A stretch of 49,018 nt of DNA from a virus: positions 1-49,018 of IMG/VR virus record IMGVR_UViG_3300035070_003059; one strand, 5' to 3'. The position numbers and the translations under genes were made by a program. Below, piece by piece: positions 20,930 through 41,249 of this stretch (positions are counted from its first letter, which is position 1; the number at the start of each line of letters is the position of its first letter). The notes beneath the pieces are model-generated. The model worked only from the letters and a program-made list of their open reading frames with translations, searched no databases and had not been told where the DNA came from.

Positions 20930-21114
20930 CGCCCCGCCTCCAGCCACGCCGCCAGCAGTCGCGGCGATACAAGGTGCCTCACCTCGCGCACGATGGCTTG
21001 TGCCGCTTCCACCTGTTTTTCCAGGCGTTCCACGTCCGCCGCCGTCACCGTGCGGAGAATTGGCCCGCCGTCGCTGTCGTAGTAGATGATGGAACCGCTG
21101 CTTTTTGTGGTCAT
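20926..21114 (-). CDS. Small coiled-coil protein before the methyltransferase
   Basis: A 62-residue protein (MTTKSSGSIIYYDSDGGPIL start) with a coiled-coil helix (VERLEKQVEAAQAIVREV). It overlaps both the helicase and methyltransferase genes by a few bases. Unknown role. Confidence 0.5.
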   Translation of the reverse strand: MTTKSSGSIIYYDSDGGPILRTVTAADVERLEKQVEAAQAIVREVRHLVSPRLLAAWLEAGR

Positions 21115-22106
21115 AGTTGCACCACCTTGATTTCGTTCGTCTTGAAGTTGATTTCACACGGCCACATCTTGCCAGAGGGCAAGCCGCCGCGCTGCTTAAG
21201 TACCTTCACCCACATCATGCTTTCGTTGACCTCGTATTCCTTGCCCGCGTAGCTTAGGCGCTGGCCCACTTGGTGGGTTTGCTTGGGCATCCACAAACTA
21301 ATCGAGCGGTCAGTACGCTGGGCAATGCTTGACGATTCTTCACCGTCATACACGCCAGGGATTAGCATGTTTGGGCCAATCGGATTGTTTAGCTGCTGCT
21401 TTGCCTGCACCCCGAACACAACAGGACAGGCAAAGTGTTTCGCCATCTTTTTGATTCGATACATGTCTTGCCGGACCTGAAGCCGCCGCTGGTTCATAAG
21501 GTCGCTGCCCGCTTTAACTTCCGGGTCAATCGGCAGCGCCTGTAAATAGTCCAGAAAGATACAAGCCACTCGCAGCGGCTCGCCGGTAACGTTGCCATCC
21601 TTGATATACTTAATCGCCCGGTATACGTTGCTCAGGTACAGTTCCGGGGCGCTCTCATCACCAAGCGGGTCAGCGATGCGGTAAATTGGCACACCAGCGA
21701 TTTTGCCAGCAGCATGGATAACAGCGCCCCAATCGTGAACATTGCCCCGCGATAAATCGGCAATGGTGTGATTACTCAGGCGTGAAACTTCCATCATGCC
21801 TAGCTCCTCGATAGCGTTTTCAACGTCAACGCGAATTATGATTTCGTCGCTGCGCCCTTGTGCCACCAGATGCCGCGCCAGTGCCTTTTCCCACATCTCC
21901 ATGAAAAGCGTTTTACCGTTATGAGTTTGGGCCACAACCGCGCAGGTGTTACCTGGCAGCAGGTCAGCAAAGTATTCCCCCATACCAATGCCAGGGATTG
22001 GCAACGGCATAGACCGATGTTTGCTGTTCTGGATACCCTGCAAATGGGTTATGGTTTTGCTACCGGTTTCCGGCGGCGTGTTAATTAGCTTGCGAATTTC
22101 AGACAT
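21111..22106 (-). CDS. DnaB-type replicative helicase (RecA-fold domain only)
   Basis: A 331-residue protein. A Walker A-like AQTHNGKT is at residues 59-66, a Walker B-like IFLDYLQA at 183-190 resembles DnaB's FIDYLQL, and a late QRTDRSISLWM segment fits. It lacks the N-terminal DnaB domain, as in several phage helicases. Its start (TAATG overlap) is coupled to the initiator-like gene. It unwinds DNA at the phage replication fork. Confidence 0.75.
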   Translation of the reverse strand: MSEIRKLINTPPETGSKTITHLQGIQNSKHRSMPLPIPGIGMGEYFADLLPGNTCAVVAQTHNGKTLFMEMWEKALARHLVAQGRSDEIIIRVDVENAIEELGMMEVSRLSNHTIADLSRGNVHDWGAVIHAAGKIAGVPIYRIADPLGDESAPELYLSNVYRAIKYIKDGNVTGEPLRVACIFLDYLQALPIDPEVKAGSDLMNQRRLQVRQDMYRIKKMAKHFACPVVFGVQAKQQLNNPIGPNMLIPGVYDGEESSSIAQRTDRSISLWMPKQTHQVGQRLSYAGKEYEVNESMMWVKVLKQRGGLPSGKMWPCEINFKTNEIKVVQL

Positions 22107-22798
22107 TAGTAAAAACTCCCGTCGGTGTTGGTTATGCCAGCATGTGCGGCGTGGCCATTGGTTCCGTTTTTCGATAACGTTTTGCGGCCGTTCTGCTTCC
22201 AGTTCTTCAAAATCGCCTCGATGTACTTCCACTTGCGAACGTTGTTAGCGACCGCCTCCCGCATGGCATCAACTACCATTGGCTCGGAGTAGGTGTCTAC
22301 TGCATCGAGAATTAGCTGCGAACTATGCGGAGTGATGCCGTCAATGTGATTTTCATAGAACACAATGGCAGAATCTGTATTCTCATTGGCGGCGGCGGCT
22401 ACTGTCGCCACCTTAGTTTTTTGTTTAATTTCTTTAGCCTTAAGATGGCGTTCATGTGGTAGAACACTGTGTTCATGTGGTAGAACATCGCGTTCATCTG
22501 GTAGAACATCGTTCATGTCATGTAACAAGTTTTGTTGTGTTTGTTCATCTGGTATAACGGCAACGTAGCCCATTTTCTGCGTTCTTTGGTCAACATCCCG
22601 CACAATCCAACCGTTTTCAAGAAGCCATTGCAACGCCTGGTTAACTTTGCCTAAGCTGATATTCATGCCGTCTGCCATGCTCCGCTGGCTCTCAAAACAC
22701 ACGCCCCGGCGCAAAACTCGCAGCCACACGCGGGACTGGTAAACATCTAAATCCGAATCATCTAAAGCGTATATTGCTGTTGCGTAGTTAAGTGTCAT
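22106..22798 (-). CDS. Replication initiator / DnaD-like replisome organiser
   Basis: A 230-residue protein. The N-terminal winged helix (QSRVWLRVLRRGVCFESQ; SLGKVNQALQWLLENGWI) is followed by a linker with repeated VLP-(D/H)-E-(R/H) units (about residues 100-120). A C-terminal DnaD-like part (FYENHIDGITPHSSQLILD then KWKYIEAILKNW) closes it. Such proteins load the helicase at the origin. The repeated linker is encoded by direct repeats that look like iterons (22450-22558). It sits between the HNH gene and the helicase gene. Confidence 0.75.
   Translation of the reverse strand: MTLNYATAIYALDDSDLDVYQSRVWLRVLRRGVCFESQRSMADGMNISLGKVNQALQWLLENGWIVRDVDQRTQKMGYVAVIPDEQTQQNLLHDMNDVLPDERDVLPHEHSVLPHERHLKAKEIKQKTKVATVAAAANENTDSAIVFYENHIDGITPHSSQLILDAVDTYSEPMVVDAMREAVANNVRKWKYIEAILKNWKQNGRKTLSKNGTNGHAAHAGITNTDGSFY
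22450..22558. repeat. Iteron-like repeats, candidate replication origin
   Basis: Five copies or near-copies of GTTCATSTGGTAKAAC, starting at 22450, 22471, 22492, 22511 (diverged) and 22543. The first three are spaced by 21 bases. Each unit has GTTC/GAAC dyad symmetry. They lie inside the initiator gene beside AT-rich stretches (about 22410-22440 and 22522-22542), as in lambda O and other phage initiator genes. Confidence 0.6.
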
Positions 22799-23046
22799 CA
22801 CCCACCCCTCCAAAACTGACGTGCTTTATCTAAAAACTTTTTCTTTTTATATCCATGAGCGCCAGCGTGGCACGATTCGCACAACAGCTTGAGGTTGCCG
22901 TCGTCAAAGGTTCCACCATCGCTAACCTCAACAATATGGTGAAGTTCGACGTATCCTGTATACCCGCACGATTCACAGCGATTTCCGCGCTGCTTTATAG
23001 TTCGTTTTCTAGCCAGCTGCTGTGATGCTTGGTTTCTGTTTGCCAT
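22798..23046 (-). CDS. HNH endonuclease
   Basis: An 82-residue protein. CESCGYTGYVELHHIVEV, later NLKLLCESCHAGAHG, is a compact zinc-containing HNH motif (C-x2-C, then HH, N and C-x2-C). AAAGGG lies 10 bases upstream of the ATG. It could serve in packaging or be a free-standing homing enzyme. It has its own promoter and a structured leader with a T-tract (23079-23247), unlike its operon neighbours. Its stop overlaps the initiator start (TGATG). Confidence 0.85.
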   Translation of the reverse strand: MANRNQASQQLARKRTIKQRGNRCESCGYTGYVELHHIVEVSDGGTFDDGNLKLLCESCHAGAHGYKKKKFLDKARQFWRGG

Positions 23047-23067
23047 GTCGTCGTACCCTTTGGAACC

Positions 23068-23213
23068 TTGCGAAACGCAAAAATCCCACCATTTACCTTG
23101 TGATTGTCTAGGTCACATCAGCGCGGACGCTGCCAGTAAATGGTGGGATCATTACCCACAAAGTATTTAATTGGCGGAACAAAAAATCCGCGCAATTGAT
23201 GTAACCTAGACAA
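23068..23213 (-). promoter_or_regulatory. Pseudoknot-type leader with T-tract before the HNH gene
   Basis: Read on the minus strand: X (23213-23197), Y (23149-23136), X' (23120-23104), Y' (23096-23083), then TTTTT. X/X' match 16 of 17 and the stem extends by 7 more pairs (23193-23187 with 23127-23121). Y/Y' match 14 of 14. X-Y-X'-Y' is interleaved, so the two stems form a pseudoknot or are alternatives. Y/Y' plus T5 is a terminator. A small hairpin TTGCG/CGCAA (23068-23080) follows. Confidence 0.65.
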
Positions 23214-23218
23214 GAGAC

Positions 23219-23247
23219 AGTATAAACGATCTCGCCCATTAAATCAA
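23219..23247 (-). promoter_or_regulatory. Promoter of the HNH cassette
   Basis: Minus strand: TTGATT (23247-23242), 17 bases, TATACT (23224-23219). Transcription would begin near 23212, at the very start of the structured leader, overlapping the end of the upstream methyltransferase gene. Confidence 0.6.
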
Positions 23248-23750
23248 CCCCCATCCTGTCCATAAATCGTCGTGTACATCGGGCCGCGATAGTTGCGCTG
23301 GAAATGGATAGCGCCAATGGCAAAGCCTATGGGGAAACCTAGCCTAGACCCTGGTCCGTAAATCCGCATATGGTTTATCCCTCCCCACTTGCTAACCTTT
23401 AGCATCATGCCGTAAGAGATGAACGGCTTGTCTGCTGGAAACAAAAGGCAAATATTCTTTGCGAACTGCAAGCTGTGATGTATCCATTTTGCATAACTTT
23501 TGTACGGCGGATTACCAAAAACCCAATCTACCGGCTCGGTCCACTTGAAAAAATCGCGCCCTTCTTGAATCTCGCACCATTCGGTATGCGGCGGTAGGTA
23601 CTTGAGGAAAACGCCGTCACCCTTGCACGGTTCCAGGATGCGCCCCGATGGCTTGAAAAATTCCACCATGTCACGGGCTACCCAATCGGGCGTATAAACC
23701 ACGTCGCCAGGGTCAAGCGGGATTTGTAATAGTTGCGGTTGGATGCTCAT
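23244..23750 (-). CDS. Small adenine-specific DNA methyltransferase-like protein
   Basis: A 168-residue protein. An SAM-binding motif-I-like segment (GRILEPCKGDGVFLKYL) is followed by the catalytic NPPY. This is the order of gamma-class N6-adenine enzymes, but at about 168 residues it lacks a large target-recognition domain. The start overlaps the primase stop (TGATG). It is probably a second orphan phage methylase, or a relic. Confidence 0.75.
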   Translation of the reverse strand: MSIQPQLLQIPLDPGDVVYTPDWVARDMVEFFKPSGRILEPCKGDGVFLKYLPPHTEWCEIQEGRDFFKWTEPVDWVFGNPPYKSYAKWIHHSLQFAKNICLLFPADKPFISYGMMLKVSKWGGINHMRIYGPGSRLGFPIGFAIGAIHFQRNYRGPMYTTIYGQDGG

Positions 23751-24718
23751 CAGTTCACCTTCGCTGAGTGCTGGATATACCCGTTAAACATTTGGGCATC
23801 AAACCCGTACTCAACAAACAAATCATCTGCTTTCGCTGGAAGCTGAACCAACCGCGCCCGCTCCCGTCCTACCAGCTCCACCAGCCTATCAACCGCCGCC
23901 GGTAGAATCTTGCCATCCCGCGCCTTCGTGGGCGTATAGGCGTCAGGGTCCAGACAGATGTACACCGGATCGCAATCTGCCAAGATGGTCAGCATATCCG
24001 CGCCAGGTGTTTTGCTTGGCACGGCCACAACGGAGAAACGGCCGTTGCCACTGGCCACCGTGTTGATGAACGTCACCGCCGCCTTTTTCATGCCCTCCAT
24101 GAGGAGCGCCGCGCCGTTGGGCTTTTCGTCCGGGTCTGCCAGCCATGCGCCCGCCTTTAGCCCTGCCTGAAATCTGTACTTGTCGTTTGGTGCTGGTGGG
24201 TTTGTGAGCCTGTACTGTATCGTTGTCGCTTCCCAGCCAGGCGAAAAGTAAGGGATCGTCATGCTGGGGCTTGTAAAGTCTCGCCCCTGGTATTCTGTGA
24301 ATCCGAGCTGCCAGAAGTCTTGCATACTATCAGGGATACCCGCCTGCCGCCACAATGCCCGGTGCCCTTCTTTCATTGCGTCATGATACCCGCGCCAATA
24401 CTCGTTTTTGCGTAGCTCCTGAATGTACCCGCGTAGGCGGTCATTCTCTGCCTTTAGCATGGCCTCGCGTAGGTTGCGGGCCTGCTCTATTTTTACCGGG
24501 TCTGGCCGCTGGTTGTCGTTGGCATCTGCCCACTCAAAATGTGAACATTGACGGCACCACGCGCGGGCGTTCCCTTTGGCATCGGCGGCAAATAGTCTGA
24601 ACCTATCTTCTCCGCCACAAACTACGCAGGCGCTAGACCATTCGCCGCTGCCGCGATACTTCAAATTTGGCAACGTTGCAAAGCGTGATAGTTCTTGCGG
24701 TAACGGTAAATTATTCAT
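23750..24718 (-). CDS. Primase with zinc-binding and TOPRIM domains
   Basis: A 322-residue protein. The N-terminal zinc ribbon uses Cys31, Cys34, Cys55 and Cys58. The middle has a linker helix. A TOPRIM-like C-terminal part shows ALLMEGMKKAAVTF (Glu), then YICLDPDAY (DxD) and a late KADD. It makes primers for phage DNA synthesis together with the DnaB-like helicase in the same operon. Confidence 0.8.
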   Translation of the reverse strand: MNNLPLPQELSRFATLPNLKYRGSGEWSSACVVCGGEDRFRLFAADAKGNARAWCRQCSHFEWADANDNQRPDPVKIEQARNLREAMLKAENDRLRGYIQELRKNEYWRGYHDAMKEGHRALWRQAGIPDSMQDFWQLGFTEYQGRDFTSPSMTIPYFSPGWEATTIQYRLTNPPAPNDKYRFQAGLKAGAWLADPDEKPNGAALLMEGMKKAAVTFINTVASGNGRFSVVAVPSKTPGADMLTILADCDPVYICLDPDAYTPTKARDGKILPAAVDRLVELVGRERARLVQLPAKADDLFVEYGFDAQMFNGYIQHSAKVN

Positions 24719-25076
24719 CTCTGCGGCTCCTCATGTGGCCATGCTGGCAAGTGCGATCTGTCCACCACGTGCCCATTACCCTGACGCGCCGCACGAATAT
24801 CATTAGCAGTTCACCGCACGTCTGGCAAAACTCGTGAACGATGCTAAATTCTTTGCCGTGGGCTTCATCGTGGCAACGGCGGCATAACGATTCTAAATCG
24901 CTCATGCGCTCGTGGCCGAATCTTTCATATGTTTTGTGATGTACATCTAGTGGTTTGTTTTTTGCACTACACCCCTGGCAGGTGTAGTTGTCTTTTTCAA
25001 GTCTGGCCCGGCGCTTTTTGTCCCAGGCCTCAGAGTTCATGTATTCGGTGTATTCGTCAGTGAGATGTGTCATCAT
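24711..25076 (-). CDS. HNH endonuclease with C-terminal zinc ribbon
   Basis: A 121-residue protein. The HNH core is CQGCSAKNKPLDVHHKTYER, then LESLCRRCHDEAHG. A C-terminal CQTC ... CQHG segment could bind a second zinc. AGGGGGA sits just upstream; the ATG one codon earlier (25079) is also possible. It is located before the primase. A homing or packaging-type nuclease is likely. Confidence 0.8.
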   Translation of the reverse strand: MMTHLTDEYTEYMNSEAWDKKRRARLEKDNYTCQGCSAKNKPLDVHHKTYERFGHERMSDLESLCRRCHDEAHGKEFSIVHEFCQTCGELLMIFVRRVRVMGTWWTDRTCQHGHMRSRRDE

Positions 25077-25081
25077 TCCCC

Positions 25082-25300
25082 CTAATACGGCAATCCCTGC
25101 GCCTGCTGCCGTTCCAGCAGGTTGACGGCCGTTTGCAGGCCGTCGATACGGGCGCGCGTTTCTGCCCATCTCCCCGTGCGTTTTAGGGTCGTGCTGTAGT
25201 CACCGCGATCACGTGCGCGGTGCGCTACGTCTAAATGGTGCGCGGCGATTCGTTCCGCCGTTTCAATCTTCGCCCGTAATGCTGCTATCGTTTCGTCCAT
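25082..25300 (-). CDS. Small coiled-coil protein
   Basis: A 72-residue, Ala/Arg-rich helical protein (MDETIAALRAKIETAERIAA start). Its stop lies just before the HNH gene. No function is recognised. Confidence 0.55.
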   Translation of the reverse strand: MDETIAALRAKIETAERIAAHHLDVAHRARDRGDYSTTLKRTGRWAETRARIDGLQTAVNLLERQQAQGLPY

Positions 25301-25319
25301 GTCAATTCTCCATTGGAAT

Positions 25320-25352
25320 AAAAAAAACCGCTGCTATCTACTGGCTAATAGC
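25320..25352 (-). terminator. Terminator after the HTH-nuclease gene
   Basis: Minus strand: a GCTAT / ATAGC hairpin overlapping the stop codon of the nuclease gene, five more bases, then eight T (25327-25320). The stem is short, so termination may be partial. It marks the downstream edge of the AT-rich cassette. Confidence 0.5.
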
Positions 25353-26026
25353 CAATAGGCATTATGGTATTTTAGATATTTACTAATTTCTGGGCGCTTT
25401 GTCGGATAACAAAATTGAATCTTTTGCACATGTTCTGGAATAATAATTGAAGGTATGACAAAAACATCTTTATTACCAGTAATGCAGAAGTAATAATCAC
25501 AATCTCGCCTTTTATCCACACCTATATGAAATTTCCATTGAGGGGAGATCAAGCGCCCATCAAGAGAGGGTGCAATCTTTTTTGATAAACCAGCCTTTAC
25601 ATCAACACGGTTTCCATCAACAAGTAAATCAAATGGGTGATTATAGGGCATCGCCCTAACGTCAAACCCCATAGTTTCTAAGTGAGCTATGGCCCAATTC
25701 TCCCATTTTGTTCCAACCTTTCTGCTATTGTTTGGCTTGCCATCAACCTTATATCTTTGCCCAGCCCGTATTTTGCCAACCGTTCTGATAGCTAAGTTCA
25801 ATTTATTAGCCAGCTGGCTGTTGGTAAGGAGTGGATTGCCCCGAATATAATTGTGCAAGTCCTCAGTTTTCTTGTAATTCTCTAGCCAACCAGTATTACC
25901 TATAACCTTCCAAACAGATTGTTTAGTGATACCATATTTATCACCAATCTCTTGCAGGGTTAGCCCATGTTCCCTCAGCGCTATCATGTCTCGCTTTCTT
26001 TCTTCTCTCTGTTTTTTGCTTGCCAT
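25334..26026 (-). CDS. HTH plus PD-(D/E)XK nuclease, probable free-standing homing endonuclease
   Basis: A 230-residue protein. HTH-like segments are near residues 20-45 (LTLQEIGDKYGITKQSVWKV) and 66-90 (LLTNSQLANKLNLAIRTVGK). The nuclease core has Glu109 (KWENWAIAHLETMG), Asp133 (HPFDLLVDG) and VDVK with Lys144: an E...D...D-x-K set. The gene is visibly more AT-rich than its neighbours, suggesting recent transfer. The start at 26026 avoids the longer frame that runs back into the leader hairpin. It has its own promoter and structured leader. Confidence 0.8.
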   Translation of the reverse strand: MASKKQREERKRDMIALREHGLTLQEIGDKYGITKQSVWKVIGNTGWLENYKKTEDLHNYIRGNPLLTNSQLANKLNLAIRTVGKIRAGQRYKVDGKPNNSRKVGTKWENWAIAHLETMGFDVRAMPYNHPFDLLVDGNRVDVKAGLSKKIAPSLDGRLISPQWKFHIGVDKRRDCDYYFCITGNKDVFVIPSIIIPEHVQKIQFCYPTKRPEISKYLKYHNAYWLLASR

Positions 26027-26033
26027 AAGATAC

Positions 26034-26161
26034 AAAAAAACTCCTAAACTTTGACTAAGTGGTTTGTGGCTTGAGTGGGGTATTGCGCAAATATGGCAGA
26101 TGCGCCTACATCCAACAAACCACCTAGTCAAAGGCTAGGAGCCTGATTACCGCCACTCAAG
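26034..26161 (-). promoter_or_regulatory. Pseudoknot-type leader with T7 before the HTH-nuclease gene
   Basis: Minus strand order: A (26161-26153, CTTGAGTGG), B (26141-26116), A' (26078-26070), B' (26066-26041), then seven T (26040-26034), 7 bases before the ATG. A/A' match 9 of 9; B/B' match 23 of 26. The pairs interleave, as in the HNH leader. B/B' plus T7 is a strong intrinsic terminator, so the gene is off unless the terminator is bypassed or melted. Confidence 0.7.
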
Positions 26162-26191
26162 TCTTTCATGTAGTCTATGAGGCGCTGCCAT
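26147..26191 (-). CDS. Possible 14-residue leader peptide
   Basis: A mini-frame MAAPHRLHERLEWR with GAGG just before the ATG (26191) and a stop at 26147. It covers the first repeat (A) of the leader, so ribosomes on it could affect A-A' pairing. Spacing to the ribosome site is short, so this is only a candidate. Confidence 0.25.
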   Translation of the reverse strand: MAAPHRLHERLEWR

Positions 26192-26215
26192 TCACCTCAA
26201 AAACATTGTTCCTAA

Positions 26216-26244
26216 AGTATAATGATTCTCTACCCAAATGTCAA
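26216..26244 (-). promoter_or_regulatory. Promoter of the HTH-nuclease cassette
   Basis: Minus strand: TTGACA (26244-26239), 17 bases, TATACT (26221-26216). Near-perfect sigma70 promoter just downstream of the 26272-26511 gene. Transcription would start near 26209. Confidence 0.75.
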
Positions 26245-26271
26245 AACTTTTTTTACAGCAGCGGCAGCTGC

Positions 26272-26511
26272 TTACCCAATGCTTCCGGGCCAGCGGTGGT
26301 TTTGCCGTTCGCTTGTTTCAATCATCCACTCATCGCCGCCGTAATCCGGCTCATCTTTGCTGCGTCGCACCCATATGGCATACAGCCCGCAGCCTGGGCA
26401 CTGAATCTGCTTATGACGACGGCTTTTCTGCAATGCCCACTCGTGCCATTGTAAATAGCCTGGAGGGGATGGCGTGTGCTTTGCCTCGTTGGGGCATGTG
26501 CTTTTACTCAT
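26272..26511 (-). CDS. Small zinc-binding protein
   Basis: A 79-residue protein. QCPGCGLYAIWVRR gives one C-x2-C knuckle and an N-terminal Cys/His pair may complete a zinc site. The C-terminus is acidic then polar. It is one of several small Cys-rich early proteins. Function unknown. Confidence 0.55.
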   Translation of the reverse strand: MSKSTCPNEAKHTPSPPGYLQWHEWALQKSRRHKQIQCPGCGLYAIWVRRSKDEPDYGGDEWMIETSERQNHRWPGSIG

Positions 26512-30797: not shown

Positions 30798-30862
30798 ATG
30801 ATAAAGTAATTTTGTTTTTCCGTCAAGCAATTGCTTGACAACTACTAAAAAATCTTTATAAT
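30798..30862. promoter_or_regulatory. Divergent early promoters sharing one operator
   Basis: Plus promoter: TTGACA (30835-30840), 16 bases, TATAAT (30857-30862). Minus promoter: TTGACG (30826-30821), 17 bases, TATCAT (30803-30798). A perfect 16-bp palindrome TCAAGCAATTGCTTGA (30823-30838) overlaps both -35 elements. One site could thus control both directions, the hallmark of a lysis-lysogeny switch. Confidence 0.8.
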
Positions 30863-39401: not shown

Positions 39402-41249
39402 TTAAGCTCCTTGTGTAATGGTGTAGACCCGCGATTCTAGCGGGATGTTCCACACTCTCGATTCACTTTCGATAAGATAGGTGCGGTTCTCTCCCGCAAT
39501 TACATACGTTCTATCGTCTGGTACAGGTATCTCAACACCACCAGAGACAGACGGTTGATAAACAACCGACACATTATTGATAAAGGTTGGAGCTATGTCT
39601 ATTGCCCCAGGTGTGACCGTAGGCTGGTAGATGGTTGATGTGTTGGTCAGCAGGTCAACCAGAATTTCATAACTTGCGCTTACGGCAGGCTGGTATACCT
39701 GCTCCGCGCTTTCGATTCGATTAGCTGCAACGGTGATAGCCCCAGGTGTGACCGCTGGCTGGTATACCTGCTCCGCGCTGCTAATGAAATCAACTTCGAT
39801 AACAGACCCACCCGCCGTTACTGTTGGTTGGTATATGGCCGTCGCGCTTTCGATTCGCTCTGGAGCAATGTCTACCGCGCCAAATGTTAGGGCTGGTTCA
39901 TAAACCGTTGACGTTGATTCAATGCGGCTTGCTTCAATGACAAGCACCCCGGTGCTAACGGTAGGCTCGTAAACAACGGCCGTGCTAGTAATGAAAACTG
40001 GCGAGACATCCACCGCCCCCGGCGTTACCGTTGGCTGGTATACAATCTCTGTACTCTCGATTCGATTGGCGGAAACATTTACCGCGCCAATCGTAACGTT
40101 CGGTTGATATACCTCGTTGCTGCTTTCGATTCTGTCAGGCGCTATAGTTATCGCGCCAGGCACGACGGCTGGCTGGTAGACCGTTTCTGTTGAGGCAATA
40201 AAATCAGGCGCAACGGTTATCGCGCCAAAGCTGACTTCTGGCTGATAAACTTCCGAAACGCTGCTGATAATATTGGGGGTAATGGTAATAGCCCCGGGAA
40301 CAACAGAAGGTTGATAAACGGTGCTGCTGCTTTCGATTCTGTCGGCTGCGATGTTTGCCGCGCCGGGTGCTACTGTCGGTTGGTACACTACCTGTGTTGA
40401 GGCAATAAAATCAGGCGAGACAACAACGGCCCCAGGTGTGACCGCTGGCTGGTATACCTGCTCCGCGCTGCTGATAATATTGGCGGCGATGTTAATAGCG
40501 CCAGGTACAACGGCGGGTTGATAAATGGTGCTGGTGTTGGTTAGCAGATTGGCGGCAATGTCTTGTTCGCCCCCACCCGCCGCCGCCTTAATCACCAGCG
40601 CAACGGCCGAAATCCTAAATACCGCCCCGCTGCCGGTCTGCGTGTCTGTCCAAGCCACAGAGGTGGACGTGCTGCCTGTGCGGTATTGGCTTTGCATGTG
40701 CGCGTAATCCGCACCGCTGCCAAAATCCTGGCCCTCTGTCCAGCCAGCCCCCGGCGATGCTCCCCAAGTGCCGGTGTTGTCCATTTCGGCGTTTAGCCAG
40801 CCGACGACGTAATCACCAGTGTCAGGAGCTGCCGATAGCGTGATGCTGTCCGCGCCGTTGCTGGCTATGTTGTTGTCGCTGGCAGTGCCGCCGATTGGGG
40901 TGGTGGTGTCCTGGCCCGTGTAGTGATAGACGCTGATATTGTAAGCGTTGACGTTGGTCGCGCCATGATCGACCGTGATGTTACAGTTGCCCGTGCTGGC
41001 GGCAACGGCCGTATACGTCCGCGCGCCGCTTGTCCAATTTGACAACACGCTGGACACGGTGACTTGCTGCGTCCAGGTAAGCCCCTGGCTGTCGCTAATT
41101 GTTGGTGCCCAGGTGGATGTCCCTGCAAAACCGCCGCCAATCGTCACCACCAGCAGCGCCCCGGCCGTCACTGATAGGTTGCCGGTGCTGGCGGTGCCTG
41201 TCCCAGTTGCTTGCGTTGCGCCGTAGAGGATGGTCTGAGTAAGTGCCAT
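39402..41249 (-). CDS. Tail/adhesion protein with fifteen 23-residue repeats
   Basis: A 615-residue protein. Residues 1-220 look like a lectin or concanavalin-like beta domain. From about 243 to 575 there are fifteen copies of a 23-residue unit centred on VYQP-x-V-x-PGA. The end (residues 577-615) has short (D/N/S)R(T/V)-aromatic-x-I repeats. It is a likely receptor-binding or spacer fibre. Repeat number can change by recombination. No signal peptide. Confidence 0.7.
   Translation of the reverse strand: MALTQTILYGATQATGTGTASTGNLSVTAGALLVVTIGGGFAGTSTWAPTISDSQGLTWTQQVTVSSVLSNWTSGARTYTAVAASTGNCNITVDHGATNVNAYNISVYHYTGQDTTTPIGGTASDNNIASNGADSITLSAAPDTGDYVVGWLNAEMDNTGTWGASPGAGWTEGQDFGSGADYAHMQSQYRTGSTSTSVAWTDTQTGSGAVFRISAVALVIKAAAGGGEQDIAANLLTNTSTIYQPAVVPGAINIAANIISSAEQVYQPAVTPGAVVVSPDFIASTQVVYQPTVAPGAANIAADRIESSSTVYQPSVVPGAITITPNIISSVSEVYQPEVSFGAITVAPDFIASTETVYQPAVVPGAITIAPDRIESSNEVYQPNVTIGAVNVSANRIESTEIVYQPTVTPGAVDVSPVFITSTAVVYEPTVSTGVLVIEASRIESTSTVYEPALTFGAVDIAPERIESATAIYQPTVTAGGSVIEVDFISSAEQVYQPAVTPGAITVAANRIESAEQVYQPAVSASYEILVDLLTNTSTIYQPTVTPGAIDIAPTFINNVSVVYQPSVSGGVEIPVPDDRTYVIAGENRTYLIESESRVWNIPLESRVYTITQGA
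39525..40523 (-). repeat. 69-bp tandem repeats in the tail adhesion gene
   Basis: Fifteen in-frame units with period 69 bp, each with a TGGTATACC-like or TGATAAAC-like core for Y-Q-P. Neighbouring units differ widely but some are near-identical (the units around 39757 and 40447 share about 35 bases). This suggests past unit duplication and shuffling. Confidence 0.8.

Follow-up and report, generated by a model that had tools for sequence, protein, structure and literature searches.

In a 49-kb virus record, a methyltransferase-like gene and an 82-aa HNH gene on the minus strand are separated by a gap of 197 bp. This gap carries a leader (leader 1) which, from its sequence, most probably serves as an attenuator, or as a leaky terminator, in front of replication genes. 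We give about even odds (roughly 50%) to the more specific reading, that leader 1 is a cis-acting transcription attenuator of the phage replication operon. The whole record (49,018 nucleotides; classed as linear in IMG/VR) is referred to below as the window, and the features discussed are collected in Table 1.

Table 1. Features of the two leaders and their neighbouring genes, in the direction of transcription
Feature	Position	Strand	Remarks
Leader 2 with its promoter	26034..26244	minus	leader 26209-26034
Leader 2 candidate promoter, TTGACA-17-TATACT	26244-26216	minus	11/12
Leader 2 X	26161-26153	minus	
Leader 2 Y	26141-26115	minus	
Leader 2 X'	26078-26070	minus	
Leader 2 Y'	26067-26041	minus	followed by T7
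Gene after leader 2, HTH domains and PD-(D/E)XK-like motif	25334..26026	minus	nuclease by motif only, read by eye
Candidate sigma70-like promoter of leader 1, TTGATT-17-TATACT	23219..23247	minus	9/12 consensus positions
Stop codon of methyltransferase-like gene upstream of leader 1	23246-23244	minus	
X, 5' arm of long-range helix	23197..23213	minus	
X extension, GCGCGGA	23187..23193	minus	after 3-nt bulge
Y, 5' arm of terminator stem	23136..23149	minus	
X' extension, TCCGCGC	23121..23127	minus	
X', 3' arm of long-range helix	23104..23120	minus	
Y', 3' arm of terminator stem	23083..23096	minus	
T run, TTTTT	23079..23083	minus	last stem U counted
HNH endonuclease gene, 82 aa	22798..23046	minus	ATG at 23046; Pfam PF01844, E 8.9e-11
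DnaD-like helicase loader	22106..22801	minus	PF07261, E 6.3e-12; phrog_186, E 5e-23
DnaB-like helicase ORF	21111..22232	minus	PF03796, E 1.5e-8

An earlier note on this DNA had described the order X-Y-X'-Y'-T5, and the coordinates confirm it on the minus strand. The X and X' arms match at 16 of 17 positions in the DNA and at all 17 in the minus-strand RNA, because the lone mismatch becomes a U-G wobble. As that note had also claimed, seven extra pairs follow, formed by the two extensions beyond a 3-nt AUU bulge; the X extension can alternatively pair with TTCCGCCAATT as a local hairpin. Y and Y' make the perfect stem ascribed to them (14/14 pairs around a 39-nt loop, then TTTTT). A U run lies directly 3' of this 14-pair stem, as in an intrinsic terminator, and weak pairs prolong the stem into the T run. 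The first half of Y can make a local hairpin of its own, GTGGG-TAATGAT-CCCAC. The promoter match overlaps the upstream stop codon and is weak by consensus; chance alone would give about 18 sites of its 9/12 quality in the 19 kb covered by the scan. The note had RNA starting at the first base of X; the promoter match is indeed present, and a start 7-8 nt past the -10 box would fall at 23212-23211, that is, within about 2 nt of that base.

The structure is real, strand-specific, and unusually ordered. We scored the architecture as interleaved stems ending at a T run and, as the control, shuffled the window 200 times under an order-2 Markov model. Leader 1 scored 33 and a second leader (leader 2, 26161-26038) scored 34, against 25.5 for the best of the shuffles, and these were exactly the two sites in the window that exceeded the shuffle range in the interleaved-stem scan. 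With Y and Y' fixed and the rest of leader 1 shuffled, the stem length of X-X' beat 3000 of 3000 shuffles. The folding z-scores are -5.9 for leader 1 and -5.1 for leader 2. In the main arms of both leaders, three of the four non-Watson-Crick positions are G-U on the transcribed strand, a bias with a chance probability of ~0.016 when the 12 mismatch types are assumed to be equally likely; with the A-C pair that flanks X in leader 2 counted in, this weakens to ~0.035.

Leader 2 shows the element order of leader 1, a much better promoter match, and a terminator stem of 26 pairs with a loop of 47 nt; AGGAG is located within its Y' arm. In neither leader is the loop the short one (about 3-8 nt) of strong terminators, and a standard terminator scan lists neither stem as a terminator. 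The earlier note had spoken of the same kind of leader. The shared order and the extraordinary terminator stem of leader 2 lend this moderate support, but its X-X' is marginal: with Y fixed, the stem length was matched in 3-6% of shuffles (p 0.03-0.06), and the duplex energy is not significant given Y, as 877 of 2000 shuffles (44%) reach it. That both leaders are one device is suggestive, whereas the case for leader 1 alone is solid.

All folding energies assume 37℃, which may not be the temperature of the host. In the nested ensemble of the growing leader 1 RNA, X-X' forms once X' emerges and before Y' exists, with Y trapped in its loop (P(X) 0.98 and P(Y) <0.01 from nt 112 on); the nested minimum free energy is -52.9 kcal/mol with X-X', versus -46.2 kcal/mol for the best fold with Y-Y'. 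In the growing leader 2 RNA, X-X' is complete at nt 140-152, where P(X) reaches 0.998 (nt 148), and the 26-pair Y-Y' then overturns it (P(Y) 0.98 from nt 172). X and Y have no bases in common, and a pseudoknot with both helices is therefore conceivable. By a rough Dirks-Pierce-style estimate, in which the penalty was set at 9.6-15 kcal/mol, a fold with both stems would have about -55 to -60 kcal/mol in leader 1 and -72 to -67 kcal/mol in leader 2. The linkers of leader 1 (8 nt for Y-X' and 7 nt for X'-Y', versus a 24-pair helix) could be just long enough to span the helix, and the X-Y linker of leader 2 (6 nt versus a 26-pair stem) looks too short for a complete knot.

These results divide what the earlier note had said about mechanism. 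It suggested that X-X' can compete with Y-Y', and the two are incompatible in nested folding; the pseudoknot estimate, the kind of check which the note itself had proposed, lets both form. A kinetic or topological competition is therefore plausible from the modeled folds, rather than strict exclusion. Its attenuator logic survives in so far as an early helix closes around the 5' arm of the terminator ahead of an ORF, but the stems share no bases and so do not exclude each other in the way the helices of classical attenuators do. A pseudoknot holding both stems is also conceivable and would terminate regardless, which counts against the attenuator reading.

The strongest case that the terminator is leaky or regulated comes from the genes beyond it. 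Leader 1 lies between primase-like and helicase-loader genes and is followed by the HNH, DnaD-like loader, and DnaB-like helicase genes, in that order, with the start of the loader gene overlapping the HNH stop codon. Our promoter scan found no minus-strand promoter of at least 9/12 from the leader 1 terminator down to 20325, so these three genes would have to be transcribed through the terminator. Downstream of leader 2 are the HTH/PD-(D/E)XK-like gene, an HNH gene, the primase-like gene, and the methyltransferase-like gene. The note had placed leader 1 just before a nuclease gene; the HNH gene does follow it, but only as the first gene of a replication operon, perhaps incidentally. Both leaders head blocks of the replication module, and their nuclease genes may be coincidental. 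As a separate observation, the DnaD-like gene contains three in-frame 21-bp direct repeats (22442-22508).

We propose that RNA starts at or near X. As X' is made before Y', X-X' (17 pairs, the bulge, and 7 more) would close first around Y, and, once Y' emerges, the Y-Y' terminator could form only by threading through the X-X' loop or by displacing it. The balance between X-X' and Y-Y' would then set how much transcription passes into the HNH, DnaD-like loader, and DnaB-like helicase genes. Leader 2 would follow the same order, with a stronger terminator taking over once complete. Of this scheme, our analysis shows the layout of the sequence, its excess over shuffles, and the order of folding predicted by the model; the start site, termination, readthrough, and regulation are inferences. 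A bolder generalization, which we regard as rather doubtful, is that of a reusable topological attenuator, in which an early helix controls a terminator by locking one of its arms, in at least two operons and with unrelated sequences. If true, this would be a class of attenuator invisible to sequence-based searches (motif or covariance), with attenuation by topology, and not by base sharing, at the gate of phage replication genes.

The rival that survives best, although we consider it unlikely, takes Y-Y' for an ordinary phage timing terminator that awaits a phage or host antitermination factor, with X-X' a separate feature such as an RNase III site or a 5' protection. Phages normally have terminators before their replication genes, as lambda has tR1 before O and P, and stems that share no bases and are allowed by the pseudoknot estimate to form together would suit such an arrangement. 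It leaves unexplained, however, why X-X' encloses one terminator arm only and why the order recurs in a second leader, and no antitermination gene was recognized among the proteins covered by a non-exhaustive scan.

Alternatively, each leader could be a free-standing gene for a structured, knotted RNA of ~130 nt that acts in trans, with the following gene living on leak-through. The compact promoter-RNA-terminator units at two places, their very stable folds, and the precedent of IsrK (PMC4825925) all point this way. Yet both units lie directly 5' of ORFs with no other visible promoter, and such an RNA has neither a target nor a family: Rfam gave no match at gathering score in the window and no relevant hit in 22900-26400 even at E values as high as 10, and its covariance models, including those for C4 antisense RNA and HEARO, were not matched. 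We think this reading improbable.

Searches for relatives were negative throughout. Blastn found no leader homologous to leader 1 in phages or plasmids (chance matches alone) and none homologous to leader 2 in phages. As no homologous leader was found, there is no covariation for either, and this is the main weakness of our analysis. No relatives were reached via the HNH, DnaB, primase, and DnaD proteins. From the HTH/PD-(D/E)XK-like gene we came to two viral relatives, both weak, and to nine bacterial matches in the HTH part only, none with such leaders. Terminase relatives reached at most 47%, on contigs without the DnaB-like gene, the primase-like gene, and the leader architecture, and a terminase search of bacterial genomes found none. 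No comparable architecture occurs in a further ~1.2 Mb of fetched sequence, which is mostly from viruses and has some overlap between loci, and no site there reaches 30; the best score there, 29.5, belongs to AT-rich low-complexity DNA. The exact X pattern gave nine scattered single matches in viral contigs, none of which pairs X with X', and we took them to be chance.

An element acting at the DNA level, with the inverted repeats as protein-binding sites or as part of a replication origin, is very unlikely. Its appeal lies in the location within the replication module, between primase-like and helicase-loader genes, and in X and X' being inverted arms 76 bp apart. The G-U bias on one strand and the T run do not fit, no GC-skew turn was found at leader 1, and the X sequence is absent elsewhere in the genome, which speaks against a multi-site DNA operator.

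Attenuation controlled by a ribosome, which would translate a short leader ORF and block X' or X, seems more improbable still. Each leader does contain a 14-codon ORF: that of leader 2 (MAAPHRLHERLEWR, 26191-26147) has GAGGTGA just before its ATG and stops at 26147, where the X helix has its inner end, and that of leader 1 (MIPPFTGSVRADVT, 23152-23108) stops inside X'. Short ORFs are common by chance, however; the two leader peptides have nothing in common, the ORF of leader 1 lacks a good ribosome site, and the site of leader 2 sits in a hairpin. Antisense-RNA-controlled attenuation, as in plasmids pT181 (PMC3753616) and pIP501, is scarcely credible, for although replication genes lie downstream and a 10/12 promoter-like site is found on the opposite (plus) strand (22972-23001), sites of that quality are expected by chance and no terminator for an antisense RNA was found.

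Elsewhere in the window, a third candidate leader, an inverted repeat with TGGCAGCG (30353-30259), was rejected, as it lacks a T run and its folding energy is unremarkable. In this region, ATGGCAGCGTAGCC forms a perfect inverted repeat of 14 bp whose arms enclose a loop of 67 nt, and a small membrane-protein-like ORF follows; TGGCAGCG is present in leaders 1 and 2 as well. A near-perfect palindrome, TGTCAAGCAATTGCTTGACG, at 30821-30840 lies between divergent promoter matches (30835, plus strand, 12/12; 30826, minus strand, 10/12) and resembles the repressor operator and early switch of a phage. Finally, a 615-aa ORF (41249-39402) contains 69-bp (23-codon) repeat units at 39586-40526.

Several known systems resemble the leaders in part. 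IscB omega-RNA (HEARO) is likewise a structured RNA directly 5' of an HNH-containing ORF, and the small HNH protein is closer to the HNH part of IscB and McrA than to other solved structures. Its match to the IscB model of NCBIfam (E 9e-10) has 38.1 bits against a cut-off of 175, and the 82-aa protein has no RuvC, bridge helix, or PLMP domain, so that an IscB/IshB omega system is not indicated. Type III toxin-antitoxin loci share the succession of promoter, pseudoknotted RNA, terminator, and nuclease gene; there, ToxI consists of short repeats in tandem and ToxN is an endoribonuclease, whereas no tandem repeats were found in leader 1, and an HNH gene takes the place of a ToxN-like endoribonuclease. 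The preQ1-I and fluoride riboswitch platforms also use an interleaved helix to control a following terminator, but as short, ligand-bound pseudoknots; the present leaders have stems of 14-26 pairs, with no ligand pocket recognized and no Rfam match.

Structured RNA also stands just ahead of the phage homing endonuclease genes I-TevI, mobE, and segB, where it hides the ribosome site (reviewed in PMC3014915). In leader 1, by contrast, the HNH start codon (23046) and the ribosome site that probably serves it lie outside both stems, past Y' and T5, and the element ends in a terminator. IsrK of the Gifsy-1 prophage has its own terminator and alternative structures; it is made both as a short RNA and as an mRNA formed by readthrough, and works in trans by RNA-RNA pairing on translation (PMC4825925). 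IsrK and the leaders are alike as phage leaders with their own terminators; we saw no relation in sequence or structure.

Classical attenuators of the trp and pT181/pIP501 types likewise run from a promoter-proximal leader through an early alternative helix to an intrinsic terminator and then the gene; the plasmid attenuators, moreover, also stand ahead of replication genes. Neither an antisense RNA nor a convincing leader peptide was found for our leaders. In classical attenuators the antiterminator uses bases of the terminator; unlike these, X-X' of leader 1 takes no base from it, and its only means of action would be to trap Y in its loop. While membership of a known family is not established, the device would be a topological variant of known attenuation.
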